From: Jonesiaceae bacterium BS-20
GTDB taxonomy: Bacteria; Actinomycetota; Actinomycetes; Actinomycetales; Cellulomonadaceae
NCBI GenBank assembly: GCA_039995105.1
Contig: CP146203.1
Span: forward strand, 2,418,001-2,482,000
Direction of reading: 5' to 3'
Length of the DNA: 64,000 nt
Shown piece after piece: positions 8,801 to 57,268 of this stretch (the first letter of the stretch is position 1; each line of letters starts with the position of its first letter). The notes under the pieces are model-generated. The model ran no database searches, was not told the DNA's origin, and saw only the letters and a list, made by a program, of their open reading frames with translations. A program made the position numbers and the translations under genes.

Positions 8801-8862
8801 GCACCAAATTTCGTTGATGTTCCCCCGCGTTCCGGCGAGTGCTCTGCCGAGAGTGGCAGATC

Positions 8863-8922
8863 GCGGACGAGATTGGTAAAAAAATCCAATGTCTCGGGGG
8901 CGTTTCACCAATCTCGGTGGGG
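8863..8922. repeat. Intergenic palindromic repeat B, copy 1
   Basis: The element begins GCGGACGAGATTGGT and ends TTCACCAATCTCGGTGGGG; the CGAGATTGGT and ACCAATCTCG arms can pair. A similar element lies at 30771-30831. Its centre holds TCTCGGGGGCG, which is also the core of the family A repeats. It lies between two convergent genes, with no gene inside it. Confidence 0.6.
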
Positions 8923-12791: not shown

Positions 12792-12844
12792 CCGCGAGAC
12801 CGTCGATTCGGGTGCGTTAATTACCCGAATCGACGGTCTCGCGG
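12792..12844 (+). terminator. Strong terminator after trkHA
   Basis: A perfect 22-bp stem (12792-12813 with 12823-12844) with a nine-base loop, then GTCTTTACT. It is among the longest perfect stems in the window and lies between trkA and a convergent lipoprotein gene. Confidence 0.85.
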
Positions 12845-13584: not shown

Positions 13585-13627
13585 TGTCGCTGATCAGGTC
13601 TATCTTAGCGTCATCGAAACAAATAAT

Positions 13628-13672
13628 AGGGCCTTGCGGTAACCAGAATAATTCTGGTTACCACAAGGCCCT
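13628..13672 (-). terminator. Terminator after gguB
   Basis: A 21-bp stem with one mismatch (13628-13648 with 13652-13672) lies about 50 bases beyond the gguB stop. On the minus strand it is followed by an A/T-rich stretch (CTATTATTT). Confidence 0.8.
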
Positions 13673-13720
13673 ATCTGCGCTGTTACGCGCTAAGAACTAC
13701 GGGTACTGCAAGCCACTGGC

Positions 13721-19339: not shown

Positions 19340-19613
19340 TTCTCCTCCTCGAGAAAACTATATTTACATCTGGGTTTCTACATTGACCAAGATCGTACAG
19401 TTAGTTTTGCCCTTAAACTTATACCTGTCAAGGCGGAGAAGATCAGATCTCTTAGAATTCAGAGTCATGGCAACGGCGACAAATCACCCGTTTTCCACTC
19501 ATATTCACTGGTCAAAGCCATTATCACTCTGCAAATTTGCCATAAGTGTATGCATTTCGCTGCAAGCGAATTGATCCCATCTCTGCGGCTCTCAACTAAC
19601 TTTGCACAAAAAA
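19340..19613 (-). promoter_or_regulatory. Promoter region of chvE copy 2
   Basis: No gene is seen here. On the minus strand a possible promoter consists of TTGGTC (about 19396-19391) and TAAATA (about 19372-19367) with an 18-base spacer, followed by the strong AGGAGG site. The rest shows no clear structure. Confidence 0.35.
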
Positions 19614-19650
19614 GCCTGCCGCACCACCCGAGTTGGGCGGTGCGGCAGGC
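19614..19650 (-). terminator. Terminator after araA
   Basis: A 16-bp GC-rich stem with one mismatch (19614-19629 with 19635-19650), followed on the minus strand by TTTTTT. It ends the araBDA operon. Confidence 0.9.
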
Positions 19651-19674
19651 TCAGACTTCGAACAGATTGAGGGC

Positions 19675-23757: not shown

Positions 23758-23825
23758 GACTTTGGCGGATCAGGGCCGAGATAGCCGACTTGATCCGTCA
23801 ATCTCGGGGGCGATCCGCCAAACTC
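23758..23825. repeat. Palindromic repeat A, copy 1
   Basis: A 68-base imperfect palindrome opening GACTTTGGCGGATC and closing GATCCGCCAAACTC. Its outer arms pair well, while one inner arm has diverged. It is related to the near-identical copies at 38726-38793 and 39882-39949. It lies between araB and its regulator. Confidence 0.75.
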
Positions 23826-30646: not shown

Positions 30647-30770
30647 CCACGTAAGCACGTCCATTTTGCAGGCCCGCCCTCGAATCCATCGCCTCAGGCA
30701 AACACGAACCCTACATATAGCAGCCCCGGCTGGCTCAGTGCAGCACACCCCTATTCGAGATTGGCGTATT

Positions 30771-30831
30771 GCGGACGAGATTGGTGTTTTTTATCGCCAC
30801 TCTCGTCGACTATTCACCAATGTCGGTGGGG
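30771..30831. repeat. Intergenic palindromic repeat B, copy 2
   Basis: This copy shares GCGGACGAGATTGGT at its left end and TTCACCAATGTCGGTGGGG at its right end with the copy at 8863-8922. Additional partial arms lie at 30756-30765 (CGAGATTGGC) and 30867-30878 (CACCAATGTCGG), so the 264-base gap after disA may hold nested copies. No gene is seen in the gap. Confidence 0.6.
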
Positions 30832-37148: not shown

Positions 37149-38666
37149 ATGACAACGAAGTTTGTATTGGCAATTGACCAAGGCACAACAAGCTCCCGCG
37201 CTATCCTGTTCACTCATGACGGTGAGATCCATTCCACCGGCCAACTTGAACATGATCAGATTTTTCCGCAGGCCGGCTGGGTTGAGCACAACGCAGACCA
37301 AATTTGGAACAACGTACGTGAAGTCGTGGGACTGGCATTAACCCGAGGCAACGCCACCTCCGCGGACATTGCTGCTGTTGGTATCACCAACCAGCGTGAA
37401 ACCGCCGTGGTTTGGAACAAGACCACAGGAAAGCCCGTCTACAACGCCATCGTTTGGCAAGATACTCGCACCCAAAAGATTGTCGAGGGTCTGGCAGGCG
37501 ATGAAGGGGCAGACAGGTTCAAGCGACTCACCGGTCTCCCCCTCGCCACATATTTCTCCGGCCCAAAGGTCAAGTGGATCCTCGACAACGTCGAGGGCGC
37601 ACGGAAAGCAGCCGACAACGGTGAACTCCTGTTTGGTACCACCGACTCCTGGATCCTTTGGAATATGACCGGCGGTTGCGATGGCGGTATCCACATCACG
37701 GACGTCACCAACGCATCACGAACCTTGTTGATGAACATTGAAACCCTGACTTGGGATGAGAGCATGGCAGACCTCATGGGGATCCCAATGACTATGCTCC
37801 CGGAAATCAAGTCTTCTTCAGAGGTTTACGGCGTGGGCCGCCCAGGTGGCATGGTGCCCGGTGTGCCAATCTCTGGAATTCTTGGCGACCAGCAGGCTGC
37901 TACCTTTGGTCAGGCATGCTTTGACGTTGGTAACGCTAAGAACACCTACGGAACCGGTAACTTCATGCTGATGAATACCGGAACCGAGCCCATTCACTCC
38001 AAGAACGGGCTGCTCACCACCGTGTGCTACAAGATTGGTGACGCGCCCGCGGTCTACGCGCTCGAAGGTTCGATCGCAGTCACCGGTTCTCTTATCCAGT
38101 GGCTCCGAGACAACCTGGACATGTTCTCCGACGCACCTGACGTGGAGTACTACGCCAAGAAGGTCGAAGATAACGGTGGGGCGTACTTTGTGCCCGCATT
38201 CTCGGGGCTATTTGCGCCCTACTGGCGTCCCGATGCCCGCGGTGCTCTGGTTGGATTAACCCGCTATGTAAACAAGAACCACATTGCCAGGGCAGCTCTC
38301 GAGTCGGTCGCGTACCAAACCCGTGAGGTGGTTGATGCGATGAACGCCGACTCTGGCGTGGATCTGACCGAACTTAAGGTTGACGGCGGCATGGTTGCGA
38401 ACGAGTTGCTGATGCAATTCCAGGCAGACCAGCTCGATGTTGAGGTGATCCGCCCCGAAGTCGCCGAAACTACCGCACTCGGTGCCGCGTATGCAGCCGG
38501 CATAGCCGTCGGATTTTGGAGTGGCGAACAGGACGTGCGTGACAATTGGAAGGAAGGCAAGCGCTGGGCGCCGACTTCCACCCAGAGCGAGCGCGGCCGT
38601 CAGTATCGCAACTGGAAGAAGGCCGTTTCCAAGACCCTCGATTGGGTTGATGAGGACGTCGTCTAA
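37149..38666 (+). CDS. glpK: Glycerol kinase
   Basis: A 505-residue FGGY kinase phosphorylating glycerol to glycerol 3-phosphate. The N-terminus [15 protein letters not shown], the catalytic region [15 protein letters not shown] and the ADP-binding [13 protein letters not shown] are diagnostic of GlpK. Together with GlpF and GlpD it makes a full path from external glycerol to dihydroxyacetone phosphate. Tandem 14-bp repeats and a long palindrome follow the stop. Confidence 0.96.
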
Positions 38667-38680
38667 CTAAGTTCCACCCC

Positions 38681-38722
38681 GGTGCTCGGCCCCCGGTGCT
38701 CGGCCCCCGGTGCTCGGCCCCC
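38681..38722. repeat. Three perfect tandem 14-bp repeats
   Basis: The unit GGTGCTCGGCCCCC occurs three times in a row (38681-38694, 38695-38708, 38709-38722), 15 bases after the glpK stop and directly before palindrome A copy 2. CCCGGTGCTC recurs (reverse strand) downstream of xylB at 50102-50139. Confidence 0.85.
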
Positions 38723-38725
38723 GGC

Positions 38726-38793
38726 GACTTTGGTGGATCGCCCCCGACATTGCGGATTCGTTCCGCTAATCTCGGGGGCGATCTGCCAAAGTC
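38726..38793. repeat. Palindromic repeat A, copy 2
   Basis: A 68-base palindrome opening GACTTTGGTGGATCGCCCCC and closing GGGGGCGATCTGCCAAAGTC. It differs from the reverse complement of the copy at 39882-39949 at about four positions. It ends three bases after the stop of the endonuclease-domain gene and lacks a T-run. Confidence 0.9.
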
Positions 38794-38796
38794 AAT

Positions 38797-39729
38797 CTAC
38801 TGGGTCTGGCGCCATCCCCTGCGCATGGCACTTTCTTTCATCTTGCGTACCAATTGCGAAGAATTACGCAGGTCCGCTTTGGTCACTCGTATGAACTCCC
38901 ACCCTTGCGCACGGATCGCATCCTCCCTTAGCTTTTCTCTGATGAGGTCATTGGAATCGAAATACTTGGACTCACCGTCATATTCGATCGCAATCTTGAG
39001 TTCAGCGATAGCAATATCAAGGTAGAAAACACCTCTATCCGTCCTGATTTGATGCTGAGTGGTTACTTTTCCCAAACCAGCGCTCAACACCCGATAGCGC
39101 AGCCGTGATTCCTGTGGTGATTCTGCTCCTGGATCCGCAAGGGCCAAGATCCGTTCCGTTTGGGTGCGCATCCTTGGCATCTTCAATTCCAGATTGAATG
39201 TCTGTAATTCTTCTAATGGACAACCAATTCGTACCGCAAAGTCTGCAATGACTAGGGCATCGGCCGGAGAGAGCTGGCGCATCATTTCGACTGCAGTTAT
39301 CTCATAAGACGTTGCCCTGACAGCGTCCCGGATAACAAGCCAAGGATTATCTTCCGGGCGAGAATATACCCGGACACCTGCACGTGAGAACTGAGTCTTA
39401 CGAAAGTTAGCCACTTCTACTTTCGCAACCTCTTGGATCAGGGGAAACCCAAGGAGCACCCCCGCAGAAAAGTGACTGATCAAAACACCTTGTGGCAAGG
39501 TATTTCCATGGGTGTAGATCTTAGCCAAGTGGACAGCAGCATAGCGCTCGTAGCGGTCGGTGGGCAGATCAGCCTTATCCAGATACCAGCCGGATTTGAC
39601 TTGAACAAGCTCTTGCCGGCGGTTCCTCAGAGCAAACTGACGCTTTGGAAGCTCTTTGAAATGGAAGACGTCAGGAACCACCACGGGTTCAGCATGTGTG
39701 TACCTAGAGTTGGTGCGTATTGTGGGCAT
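38797..39729 (-). CDS. AbiEi-like protein with DUF559 endonuclease domain
   Basis: A 310-residue protein of a type common in actinobacteria. The N-terminal region (about 20-130) resembles AbiEi/wHTH antitoxin-like proteins (SGWYLDKADLPTDRYERYAAVH). The C-terminal region (237-300) is a Vsr-like PD-(D/E)XK nuclease core of the DUF559 type: Asp238, Glu249 and Asp251 in LDIAIAELKIAIEYDG, then REKLREDAIRAQGWEFIRV. It may cut DNA or RNA, or have become a regulatory protein; the biological role is unknown. The gene lies alone between inverted copies of palindrome A. Confidence 0.7.
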   Translation of the reverse strand: MPTIRTNSRYTHAEPVVVPDVFHFKELPKRQFALRNRRQELVQVKSGWYLDKADLPTDRYERYAAVHLAKIYTHGNTLPQGVLISHFSAGVLLGFPLIQEVAKVEVANFRKTQFSRAGVRVYSRPEDNPWLVIRDAVRATSYEITAVEMMRQLSPADALVIADFAVRIGCPLEELQTFNLELKMPRMRTQTERILALADPGAESPQESRLRYRVLSAGLGKVTTQHQIRTDRGVFYLDIAIAELKIAIEYDGESKYFDSNDLIREKLREDAIRAQGWEFIRVTKADLRNSSQLVRKMKESAMRRGWRQTQ

Positions 39730-39881
39730 GTAAATAACCTACGTACCGCTGGCTTACCGGTCAGTCCGGCGACCATTTAACTCCAGCGTCGGGGGTTATC
39801 AACACTTAGGACCACCCCTGTGGATATCTCGTGTGGGCGCTTCCCACGCGATTCCGGCCCCGAGCACCTTCGGAGTCATCT

Positions 39882-39949
39882 GACTTTGGCGGATCGCCCC
39901 CGACATTAGCGGAATGAATCCGCAATGTCGGGGGCGATCCGCCAAAGTC
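39882..39949. repeat. Palindromic repeat A, copy 3 (inverted)
   Basis: A 68-base near-perfect palindrome of the same family. The asymmetric core (ATTAGCGGAATGAATCCGC) shows that it is inverted relative to the copy at 38726-38793. It lies upstream of the endonuclease-domain gene and 31 bases past the rbsK stop. Confidence 0.9.
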
Positions 39950-39980
39950 GACTGTTTTATGGGGCTAGACCGGCAAGGAA

Positions 39981-40889
39981 TTACTGGGGCAGCTGATCCG
40001 TCGCGCTAGGGTATGAGTTCTGTGCGCCGTAACTTTGGACCGCATATGCGCCGACACGGCTGGCGAACTTGGCGGCGGATACCAAATCATCCCCGCTGGC
40101 AAGACGATGTGCAACGCCGCCAACAAAGGCATCGCCGGCTCCCGTAGTGTCGACAGCCTTGACCTTGGTCGCGGCAACCGAAACGGTCTGGCCCGGGGTG
40201 AAGATCTTTGACCCAGCACTGCCCAGGGTAATCATCACGCTCTTTGGACCGAAGTCGAGCAGCTGTGCACCGAGCGCATCGAAATCGTTTGGATCTAGCA
40301 CGTCGTTGCCAAGGTCGGTCAACAGTTGAACGGCCTCATGCTCGTTGACGATCAGCGGGTCGCACTTTGCCAGCAGCTCAGCACTCACACCGATCACGGG
40401 CGCCAAGTTAACAATCAGGCGGCCGGTGGTCAGCTTTGCTGCAGCCTCGTTAGCGCTTTGCGGAACTTCTCCTTGCAGGACCACAACATCGGCCCCAGCC
40501 ACGGCATTGGCATGTTCGCCAACAAAATCTCCAGTGACATGCCCATTGGCCCCGGCCACAATGACAATCGAGTTCTCGGCGGCCTGATCCAAGGTAACCA
40601 CGGCAAGCCCCGTTGGCGCATCAGTGAGCCGGGCCACGGCACTGAGATCCACATTGGATTTGGTCAGCACACTCAGCGCAGGTTCCGCATTACTGTCGTC
40701 TCCGACCGCACCAATCAATTGCACCTGTGCCCCTAACAGGGCAGCCGCACATGCTTGGTTAGCCCCCTTACCGCCGGCAGAGACGTGCCCACCGGTCCCG
40801 AGGATGGTCTCCCCTGGCTTGGGATGCTGCTGTACCTGCAAGAACAAATCGGCGTTGATCGAGCCAACTACAACTACCTTGGGGCTCAT
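39981..40889 (-). CDS. rbsK: Ribokinase (PfkB family)
   Basis: A 302-residue PfkB-family sugar kinase. It has the N-terminal VVVVGSINADLFLQV, the substrate-binding GGKGANQACAA and the ATP-site motif DTTGAGDAFVGG with the catalytic Asp. These fit ribokinase. AAGGAG seven bases before ATG 40889 fixes the start over the longer frame to 40943. It lies at the end of an operon with a phosphotriesterase-family hydrolase, so its true substrate could be another pentose or a sugar acid derivative rather than ribose. Confidence 0.88.
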   Translation of the reverse strand: MSPKVVVVGSINADLFLQVQQHPKPGETILGTGGHVSAGGKGANQACAAALLGAQVQLIGAVGDDSNAEPALSVLTKSNVDLSAVARLTDAPTGLAVVTLDQAAENSIVIVAGANGHVTGDFVGEHANAVAGADVVVLQGEVPQSANEAAAKLTTGRLIVNLAPVIGVSAELLAKCDPLIVNEHEAVQLLTDLGNDVLDPNDFDALGAQLLDFGPKSVMITLGSAGSKIFTPGQTVSVAATKVKAVDTTGAGDAFVGGVAHRLASGDDLVSAAKFASRVGAYAVQSYGAQNSYPSATDQLPQ

Positions 40890-40906
40890 GAATTCTCCTT
40901 GAGTAA

Positions 40907-40938
40907 AAGGGGGCAGAACCATATGGTTCTGCCCCCTT
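40907..40938 (-). terminator. Perfect hairpin between php and rbsK
   Basis: A perfect 14-bp stem (40907-40920 with 40925-40938) with loop ATAT lies between the hydrolase stop and the rbsK ribosome binding site, followed on the minus strand by TTTTACTC. It probably lowers rbsK expression relative to the genes before it. Confidence 0.7.
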
Positions 40939-40943
40939 GTCAC

Positions 40944-49899: not shown

Positions 49900-49975
49900 A
49901 CTTCCCAGTAGATTCGCCCACAAAAACCTTAAAAAGTTGGGCCAGCCTACTGGAAAGTTCAGACAGAACGCCGTG
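49900..49975. repeat. Repeat C, copy 2 (upstream of LRR gene)
   Basis: The second 76-base copy lies 24 bases before the LRR start, in direct orientation to the copy at 49053-49128. The inverted arms are slightly diverged (CTTCCCAGTAG with CTACTGGAAAG), while the central CGCCCACAAAAACCTTAAAA is identical. Confidence 0.9.
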
Positions 49976-50009
49976 TGGGGTGACCAGCAAAGCTGATCAC
50001 CCCACACGG
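49971..50009. terminator. Hairpin beyond xylB
   Basis: An 18-bp stem with one mismatch (49971-49988 with 49992-50009) and loop AAA sits about 150 bases beyond the xylB stop and just upstream of the LRR gene. The T-run is poor, so termination strength is uncertain. Confidence 0.65.
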
Positions 50010-57215: not shown

Positions 57216-57268
57216 AAAAATATAGCCGGGTGCGTGCCCAGTTTTGGTACGAACCCGGCTATATTTTT
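57216..57268. terminator. Bidirectional terminator
   Basis: A perfect 16-bp stem (57216-57231 with 57253-57268) starts with A5 and ends with T5, so it can stop transcription from both the reductase gene and the convergent tgpA-like gene. Confidence 0.9.

Follow-up and report, generated by a model that had tools for sequence, protein, structure and literature searches.

A lone nuclease gene between two matching palindromes

What ties a lone nuclease gene to the two palindromes that enclose it? The question is raised by a locus of the Jonesiaceae bacterium BS-20, which we studied within a window of 64,000 nucleotides. A preliminary description of this DNA had seen in the gene and its palindromes the shape of a mobile cassette, and had likened it to the hairpins and nucleases of REP/RAYT systems. 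On the comparisons of sequence and predicted structure presented here, we consider the best explanation to be a selfish repeat-nuclease unit that would work like a REPtron, a reading to which we give slightly better than even chances.

Both palindromes were found again, 68 nt long and 94% identical when one is reversed (Table 1), and the distances given for them proved exact: 3 nt separate the nuclease stop codon from copy 1 on the downstream side, and 152 nt lie between the start codon and copy 2 upstream. The arms of copy 2 are complementary at 26 of 26 positions and those of copy 1 at 23 of 26, each around a 16-nt centre, and the predicted energies of the two as RNA hairpins are -63 and -53 kcal/mol. 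A motif of about 12 nt occurs twice per arm of copy 2 at a spacing of 20 nt (39882-39893 and 39902-39913, with the other arm mirrored); read off the sequence, the motif copies at this spacing in the window palindromes are GACTTTGGCGGA and GACATTAGCGGA. A search for the 22-nt arm pattern, with up to 3 mismatches allowed, gave five matches in the window, compared with 0.00 for 100 shuffled sequences. Besides the pair first described, the window thus contains one more clear palindrome copy and two weaker ones (Table 1). Long hairpins number 10 in the window against 1, 0 and 0 in three shuffles.

The nuclease gene is intergenic, with complete genes on either side. The four neighbours that were scanned comprise the two kinase genes of Table 1, a phosphotriesterase-family gene and a MIP-family channel. 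At E <= 0.01 the gene is the sole match of its kind in its own genome. No terminator-like site combining a GC-rich hairpin with a U-tract was detected in 38500-40100, the U-tract-free type being outside the reach of this test. The Rfam scan of the window region was empty, with no intron match around the gene. Two other repeats lie close by. A GC-rich unit of 14 nt is repeated three times in tandem without change (scored as 20-nt copies at a spacing of 14) at 38677-38724, between the FGGY kinase stop and palindrome copy 1, and a perfect 16-bp palindrome with no spacer (40907-40938) lies in the region from the phosphotriesterase-family stop to the pfkB-type kinase start.

Table 1. Features of the unit, its neighbours and the solitary palindrome copies, in window coordinates
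Feature	Position	Strand	Remark
FGGY carbohydrate kinase gene	37149-38666	+	neighbour of nuclease gene
Palindrome copy 1	38726..38793	.	between convergent 3' ends of FGGY kinase and nuclease genes
Nuclease gene	38797..39729	-	310 aa; predicted AbiEi-like half and C-terminal Vsr/EDxHD-type (MTES_1575/DUF559) nuclease domain
Part coding for the predicted nuclease domain	38812..39126	-	about residues 202-306; conserved E207, D238, E249, D251
Part coding for the predicted AbiEi-like half	39130..39729	-	about residues 1-200; 6y8q and 1zel fold matches
Palindrome copy 2	39882..39949	.	31 nt past stop of pfkB-type kinase gene
pfkB-type kinase gene	39981-40943	-	neighbour of nuclease gene
Solitary palindrome copy, clear	23758..23825	.	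arm pattern and structure model
Solitary palindrome copy, diverged	30757..30824	.	44 bits
Solitary palindrome copy, strongly diverged	8849..8915	.	29 bits

The protein is predicted to join an AbiEi-like half to a Vsr-like nuclease

Pfam matched the window protein to the MTES_1575 and DUF559 nucleases below cut-off and returned no AbiEi match. Among ten relatives, two passed the MTES_1575 cut-off and five that of DUF559; AbiEi families matched L071 above cut-off (AbiEi_4) and L030 and L053 below it, and L025 had no Pfam match at all. Neither the window protein nor these ten relatives contained a transposase domain in Pfam, and NCBIfam gave no match at its cut-off.

An AlphaFold2 model made from 23 alignment rows (pLDDT 83, pTM 0.79) resembled two proteins in its first half: the antitoxin AbiEi (6y8q) over residues 58-199, with Z 11.4 and an rmsd of 3.5 across 127 residues, and Rv2827c (1zel) over residues 61-218 (Z 8.2). 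Residues 202-306 matched 3r3p, a homing endonuclease domain (Z 10.2 and rmsd 2.2 for 95 residues, TMt 0.81), with further matches to 3hrl (Z 9.9) and to Vsr itself (1vsr, Z 7.8). The first 57 residues, where the AbiEi DNA-binding domain would be expected, were barely covered by the fold matches, and the first 17 were poorly predicted. As modelled, the protein is probably an AbiEi-like half joined to a Vsr/I-Bth0305I-like nuclease.

The EDxHD motif consists of the residues E-D-x-H-D. Invariant in the 23 rows are E207, K245, E249, D251 and G252, and D238, D265 and R268 are present in at least 90% of them. A histidine follows EYDG in 21 of the 23 rows (counted by eye) and is missing from the window protein and from L025, which makes the activity of the window's nuclease copy less certain. 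AbiEi and Rv2827c both autoregulate through inverted repeats that they bind within their promoters, as the available portion of PMC7319586 describes, and repeat binding by the N-terminal half of the window protein would be a natural extension of this.

The palindrome is dispersed past gene ends in its own genome

A structure model of the palindrome (R1), built from 14 copies, gave 44 matches in the 3.53-Mb genome, which is a single contig; as every site is matched on both strands, the family occupies 22 places. Solitary copies, whose existence had been posed as a question, are thus real in this genome, as they are in other genomes described below. On our own gene calls, a preceding stop codon lies within 110 nt at all 22 places, one of which overlaps the stop by 2 nt; 14 places are convergent, eight tandem and none divergent. 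The window counts 12,586 intergenic bases, of which 3595 are convergent and 1432 divergent, so that the convergent excess is clear and the lack of divergent places weak.

Pairing between the arms has been kept as the copies changed. In the aligned own-genome copies 87% of cells pair, and shifting the partner by one column lowers this to 38-50%. Changes on both sides of a pair were found in 16 of 31 cases against 10.4 after shuffling, with none of 500 shuffles reaching 16. Since the copies are related to one another, the kept pairing shows that symmetry is retained and gives no verdict on whether DNA or RNA is the selected form. Two of the copies (L010 and L012, element 1501-1568) have a C-run and a G-run of the stem swapped between the arms with pairing retained, and one copy (L014, about 1416-1528) has an enlarged centre and spans about 113 nt overall.

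The main rival to a selfish repeat-nuclease unit is that the palindromes are operators or insulators, the AbiEi-like half repressing its own gene through the upstream repeat and the downstream repeat serving as a terminator, with further copies spread by unrelated processes or kept in a regulon or terminator role. We regard this as rather unlikely. It would suit the placing of one palindrome before the nuclease start and the other right past its stop, the position of all 22 copies past stop codons, the frequency of long hairpins near gene ends in the window, and the autoregulation of AbiEi and Rv2827c through promoter repeats, on what could be seen of PMC7319586. However, an operator has no need to be repeated past the stop or scattered after unrelated genes, and terminators need not match the flanks of one particular gene. 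The window also contains long hairpins unrelated to the palindrome (12792-12844, 13626-13674, 19613-19651, 49971-50009 and 57216-57268); four of these five lie within about 50 nt past gene ends in the ORF list and are the genome's general terminator style.

A nuclease with private repeats could also belong to a system of self-marking or defence, in which the palindromes serve as marks or titrate the nuclease, with the result that it leaves the chromosome intact and cuts incoming DNA lacking or carrying them. AbiE is a phage-defence toxin-antitoxin system, which lends this idea some appeal. Against it, PADLOC gave no match, no partner nucleotidyltransferase (AbiEii) toxin gene was present among the four scanned neighbours, and the copies are scattered at gene ends without visible advantage; we judge it very improbable.

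The 68-nt DNA itself was absent from all other 199 genomes of the family that were searched. The structure model R1 had matches in 20 of 121 genomes, the window's own included, and because several of these are generic hairpins (one with a T-run) we did not take R1 matches alone as evidence. Of the 24 R1 places outside the window's genome, three (in G087, G097 and G111) have a nuclease match about 100 nt away.

Many relatives of the nuclease lie between other shared repeats

We examined two sets of loci around relatives of the gene, with none in common. The first contained 64 loci encoding relatives 25-41% identical to the window protein; 59 had at least 300 nt on each side, and the five with short flanks were left out. 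At a score of at least 18 and within 1000 nt, the two flanks share a repeat at 34 of the 59 loci, whereas among 235 control genes taken from these loci only 2 have such flanks, and at a score of at least 25 the counts are 23 of 59 and 0 of 235. Removal of two Clostridia loci that are not real relatives (L075 and L078, one scored positive) leaves 33 of 57. For the second set we turned to the window's own family and chose loci by protein similarity. Of its 30 fetched loci, one is the window's own and two are truncated (L205 and L225, also dropped from the spacing and combined counts below), and flank repeats are shared at 21 of the remaining 27. Gene and two repeats therefore form a recurrent unit, which supports the preliminary description in treating them as one, with the reservation that loci within each set are partly related and the counts are not independent events.

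A combined criterion applied to 600-nt flanks gave 32 of 57 for the first set and 25 of 27 for the second, against 11 of 256 controls; L075 and L078 were dropped here and in the spacing counts. By these stricter criteria repeats are absent at 25 of the 57 first-set relatives. The combined criterion also misses some units, such as L062, because their upstream repeats are slightly more than 600 nt away from the partial match. By the spacing criterion alone, 61 of the 256 controls have at least one spaced pair, so that an isolated pair carries little weight.

These counts bear on another reading, namely that two ordinary terminator hairpins of a repeat family happen to flank an unrelated gene. 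Both copies of the unit do follow stop codons, as the other own-genome copies do, and this coincidence was our initial reading. We rejected it on the controlled flank test and on the clustering of R1 matches beside the nuclease gene in relatives. With the same arrangement recurring in other sequences around relatives at the frequencies given above, chance flanking is hardly credible.

The picture that emerges, as far as sequence comparison can tell, is that in many actinobacteria a lone nuclease gene lies between two copies of a private palindrome, with further copies often scattered. A match to the nuclease is encoded by 104 of 121 sampled genomes of the window's family, its own included; a genus-level search comprised one genome, the window's own. 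Among 72,556 plasmid records there were three weak matches, and 15 of 16 matched loci on viral contigs matched solely within residues 210-295, which gives no indication that plasmids or phages are the main vehicles of the unit.

Repeats of different sequence often resemble one another in length and motif spacing

The repeats differ between nucleases. The palindromes that we met are mostly about 50-75 nt long, often with phased internal motifs. In Oerskovia (L058 and L060) a 62-nt palindrome stands on both sides of the nuclease gene, Puerhibacterium (L040) also has one of 62 nt, and palindromes or near-palindromes of similar length occur in Promicromonospora (L029), Sanguibacter (L049 and L063) and Jiangella (L031 and L062). 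In the examples of this type, the downstream copy overlaps the stop codon or begins a few tens of bases away and the upstream copy precedes the start, where start codons at relative loci are our own calls. Rfam matched a tRNA at L058 and nothing else at the relative loci.

Other relatives have repeats of another form. Three Gordonia loci (L027, L030 and L044) as well as L052 and L053 have tandem copies of a short motif, opposite in orientation on the two flanks. Since some relatives thus have tandem phased motifs and no hairpins, recognition may be of the motif and not of the hairpin, which the preliminary description had suggested as the target. Common to many loci is a motif of about 12 nt at fixed spacing, the dominant spacing being 19 nt in loci of the family, 21 nt in Gordonia and 20 nt in the window palindromes. 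Direct repeats at 19 nt number 68 in 91 kb near the genes versus 19 in 438 kb of control, a 17-fold difference. Spacings of 22 and 44 nt are 5-fold over control. Among the rest, those not divisible by three mostly range from 1- to 5-fold, and those divisible by three, as produced by coding sequence, mostly show no excess. Motif copies at a spacing of about two turns would lie on one face of B-DNA.

Two further arrangements were seen beside relatives of the nuclease. In Bifidobacterium (L020, L023 and L034) the flank repeats have a long, partly conserved centre, of about 140 nt in L034, and in Gordonia (L038 and L067) the nuclease relatives adjoin long arrays of 21-nt repeats.

In Sanguibacter the motif follows the nuclease lineage

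Two Sanguibacter genomes, with five and four nuclease matches, allowed us to compare several nucleases within and between genomes. Flank repeats are present at seven of the nine; the two nucleases lacking them are both 54-58% identical to the L049 protein. All three orthologous pairs share their motif across the genomes, at protein identities of 69-74% over 200-297 residues, and none of the 18 other pairs does, nine of these being pairs within the same genome. In these two genomes the repeat motif thus goes with the nuclease lineage and not with the genome. Two more genomes, G202 and G209, have two nucleases each and two different repeats each.

In S. suarezii (G217) the L049-type palindrome occurs at at least 11 places among the matches listed. 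We predicted a second nuclease flanked by such palindromes in this genome and found none of four nucleases so flanked, the truncated L275 having been left out. The outer 10 nt, CCGCTGAGTG, are common to L063-type and L049-type palindromes, so one enzyme may serve both. The close tie between gene and palindromes that the preliminary description had put up for testing thus holds in part: it stands for the loci with shared flanks, and fails for the 25 of 57 first-set relatives without repeats under the strict criteria and for this one genome, whose palindrome type flanks none of its nucleases.

Solitary copies are frequent, and most of those compared are old residents

We searched 19 genomes with 20 joined repeats. 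All 19 gave matches, the units themselves counted in, and copies outside the unit were found in at least 11 of the 19 among the matches listed; in G213 both matches are the unit. Of 20 stretches that were fetched, one is a unit and the other 19 all carry the repeat without a nuclease match.

Two Oerskovia species allowed individual solitary sites to be compared. Seven were resolved across the junction (those outside this number being L149, L150, L153, L155 and L157), and six of them hold the palindrome in both species, which indicates that most of the compared solitary copies are old residents. The palindrome is somewhat degraded in two of the shared pairs, and in one it is identical at 62 of 62 positions between diverged non-coding flanks. 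At the seventh site a mere 12-nt remnant is left in one species. Inspected by eye, 13 Oerskovia copies showed no evident target-site duplication. The first sites suggested that the arms had changed uniformly in each of the Oerskovia species, an idea that we dropped because both arm types occur at orthologous sites.

In L228 (G209:C43:43700-47900) three L047-type palindromes lie within about 2.3 kb with no nuclease match between them, and Promicromonospora panici (G214, the genome of L057) gave 234 first-look candidates, the most of the 19 genomes, and possibly has a very high copy number.

The whole unit is found at unrelated Jiangella loci

In one strain of Jiangella ureilytica, the loci L031 and L062 align at 80% identity over 1134 nt, which is the palindrome-gene-palindrome stretch plus 8 and 21 nt, and no further match of at least 150 nt at 70% identity or more exists outside it. 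To judge from this alignment, the whole unit occurs at unrelated loci and the homology ends at the unit edges. In J. aurantiaca the flanks of L062 form one continuous match (366 nt versus 400 joined, 82% identical) without the unit, and J. rhizosphaerae has a degraded remnant at this site. The cassette shape ascribed to the window locus is borne out here by a unit that sits at unrelated loci and is missing from the orthologous site of a sister species. This presence and absence, taken alone, would fit insertion and clean loss alike, and no target-site duplication was evident by eye at the Jiangella site. The occurrence of the unit at two unrelated loci and its block-wise absence elsewhere in Jiangella count against operators or insulators as the explanation.

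The same site bears on a homing variant, in which solitary palindromes are the targets: the nuclease would cut them, and repair would copy palindrome, gene and palindrome into the broken palindrome. I-Bth0305I is the closest fold among the nuclease matches, solitary copies are frequent, and gap repair into a palindrome would leave the gene between two full palindromes. However, the sole empty site examined, that of J. aurantiaca, has no palindrome, and an incidental, unsystematic look turned up no unit with a solitary palindrome as its orthologous counterpart. We consider homing into palindromes improbable.

A possible mechanism and its relation to known repeat systems

Returning to the selfish repeat-nuclease unit, we propose that the AbiEi-like half would bind a private motif, often present in helically phased copies inside a palindrome, and that the Vsr-like half would nick or cut at or near this motif. 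Repair of the cut, or transfer of a released hairpin, could then copy the palindrome to new sites, and the palindrome-gene-palindrome unit might sometimes be copied along. The own-genome copies sit after gene ends, a position in which a long hairpin may do no harm or may be of use in termination. We see an even chance that this constitutes a new class of actinobacterial selfish element, in which an AbiEi plus Vsr/homing-type nuclease spreads lineage-specific palindromes with phased motifs of about 12 nt and the gene moves as palindrome-gene-palindrome. Such a class would be a convergent counterpart of REP/RAYT that is neither a transposase nor an RNA-guided system.

REP-type palindromes are common bacterial repeats. 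The enzymes tied to them are HUH tyrosine transposases, in those parts of PMC8266576 and PMC3733652 that were accessible, and the proposed system matters in that a nuclease unrelated to HUH enzymes would stand in the same relation to its own repeats. It has the appearance of a selfish repeat system, so far undescribed, around an enzyme resembling homing endonucleases, and a mainly open-access literature yielded no account of DUF559/AbiEi-type genes flanked by repeats. If the reading is true, it would explain actinobacterial palindromes past genes that are otherwise filed as terminators. The family also offers naturally matched protein-motif pairs for the study of DNA reading by AbiEi-type domains, a possible source of new site-specific nucleases, and a way to ask directly if cutting by an enzyme is enough by itself to spread short repeats.

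Several known systems resemble the unit in part. The C-terminal domain has the fold of the EDxHD enzyme I-Bth0305I and of Vsr; unlike these, the window gene has no intron found around it, comes with dispersed palindromes and has another DNA-binding half. MITEs and palindrome-associated transposable elements are short, palindromic, non-coding and dispersed, and depend on known transposases. The repeats studied here are likewise short, palindromic, non-coding and dispersed, whereas their enzyme is of another kind, and inspection of the 13 Oerskovia copies by eye revealed no target-site duplication. The N-terminal half shares its fold with AbiEi and Rv2827c, whose known members bind own-promoter inverted repeats in the consulted part of PMC7319586. 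The AbiE type IV toxin-antitoxin system differs in that here a C-terminal nuclease is fused, the four scanned neighbours include no toxin gene, and the repeats are two-sided and dispersed. In TIRtrons, on the partial text of PMC3733652, terminal inverted repeats enclose the gene, and some of these repeats make up dispersed families as well, but the genes are HUH tyrosine transposases.

The comparison with REP/RAYT made in the preliminary description is apt, with a nuclease of another family, that of the AbiEi plus Vsr/I-Bth0305I fold. Like a REPtron, as portrayed in the available sections of PMC8266576 and PMC3733652, the unit consists of a single gene in the chromosome with its private palindrome on either side; many solitary copies lie in intergenic regions, and species with several families of repeats have genes specific to each repeat. 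The REPtron enzyme is of the HUH/Y1 kind, whereas here it is an AbiEi-Vsr/EDxHD-type nuclease with no RAYT chemistry. REP palindromes measure 20-40 nt and have a GTAG tag, according to the same partial text of PMC3733652, versus mostly about 50-75 nt here; GTAG or CTAC stands at the start or end of the palindrome in none of 14 copies, and GTAG occurs inside the stem in two of them only (L003 and L011). As enzyme class and GTAG tag both fail, we regard the unit as an analogue and not a member of the REPtrons. Some REPtrons concentrate their repeats near the gene (PMC8266576 and PMC3733652, in part), as the window's genome does: within 40.3 kb, a width picked post hoc with the data already seen, lie six of the 22 own-genome places, the unit's own two included, a clustering reached by 1 of 20,000 random placements.
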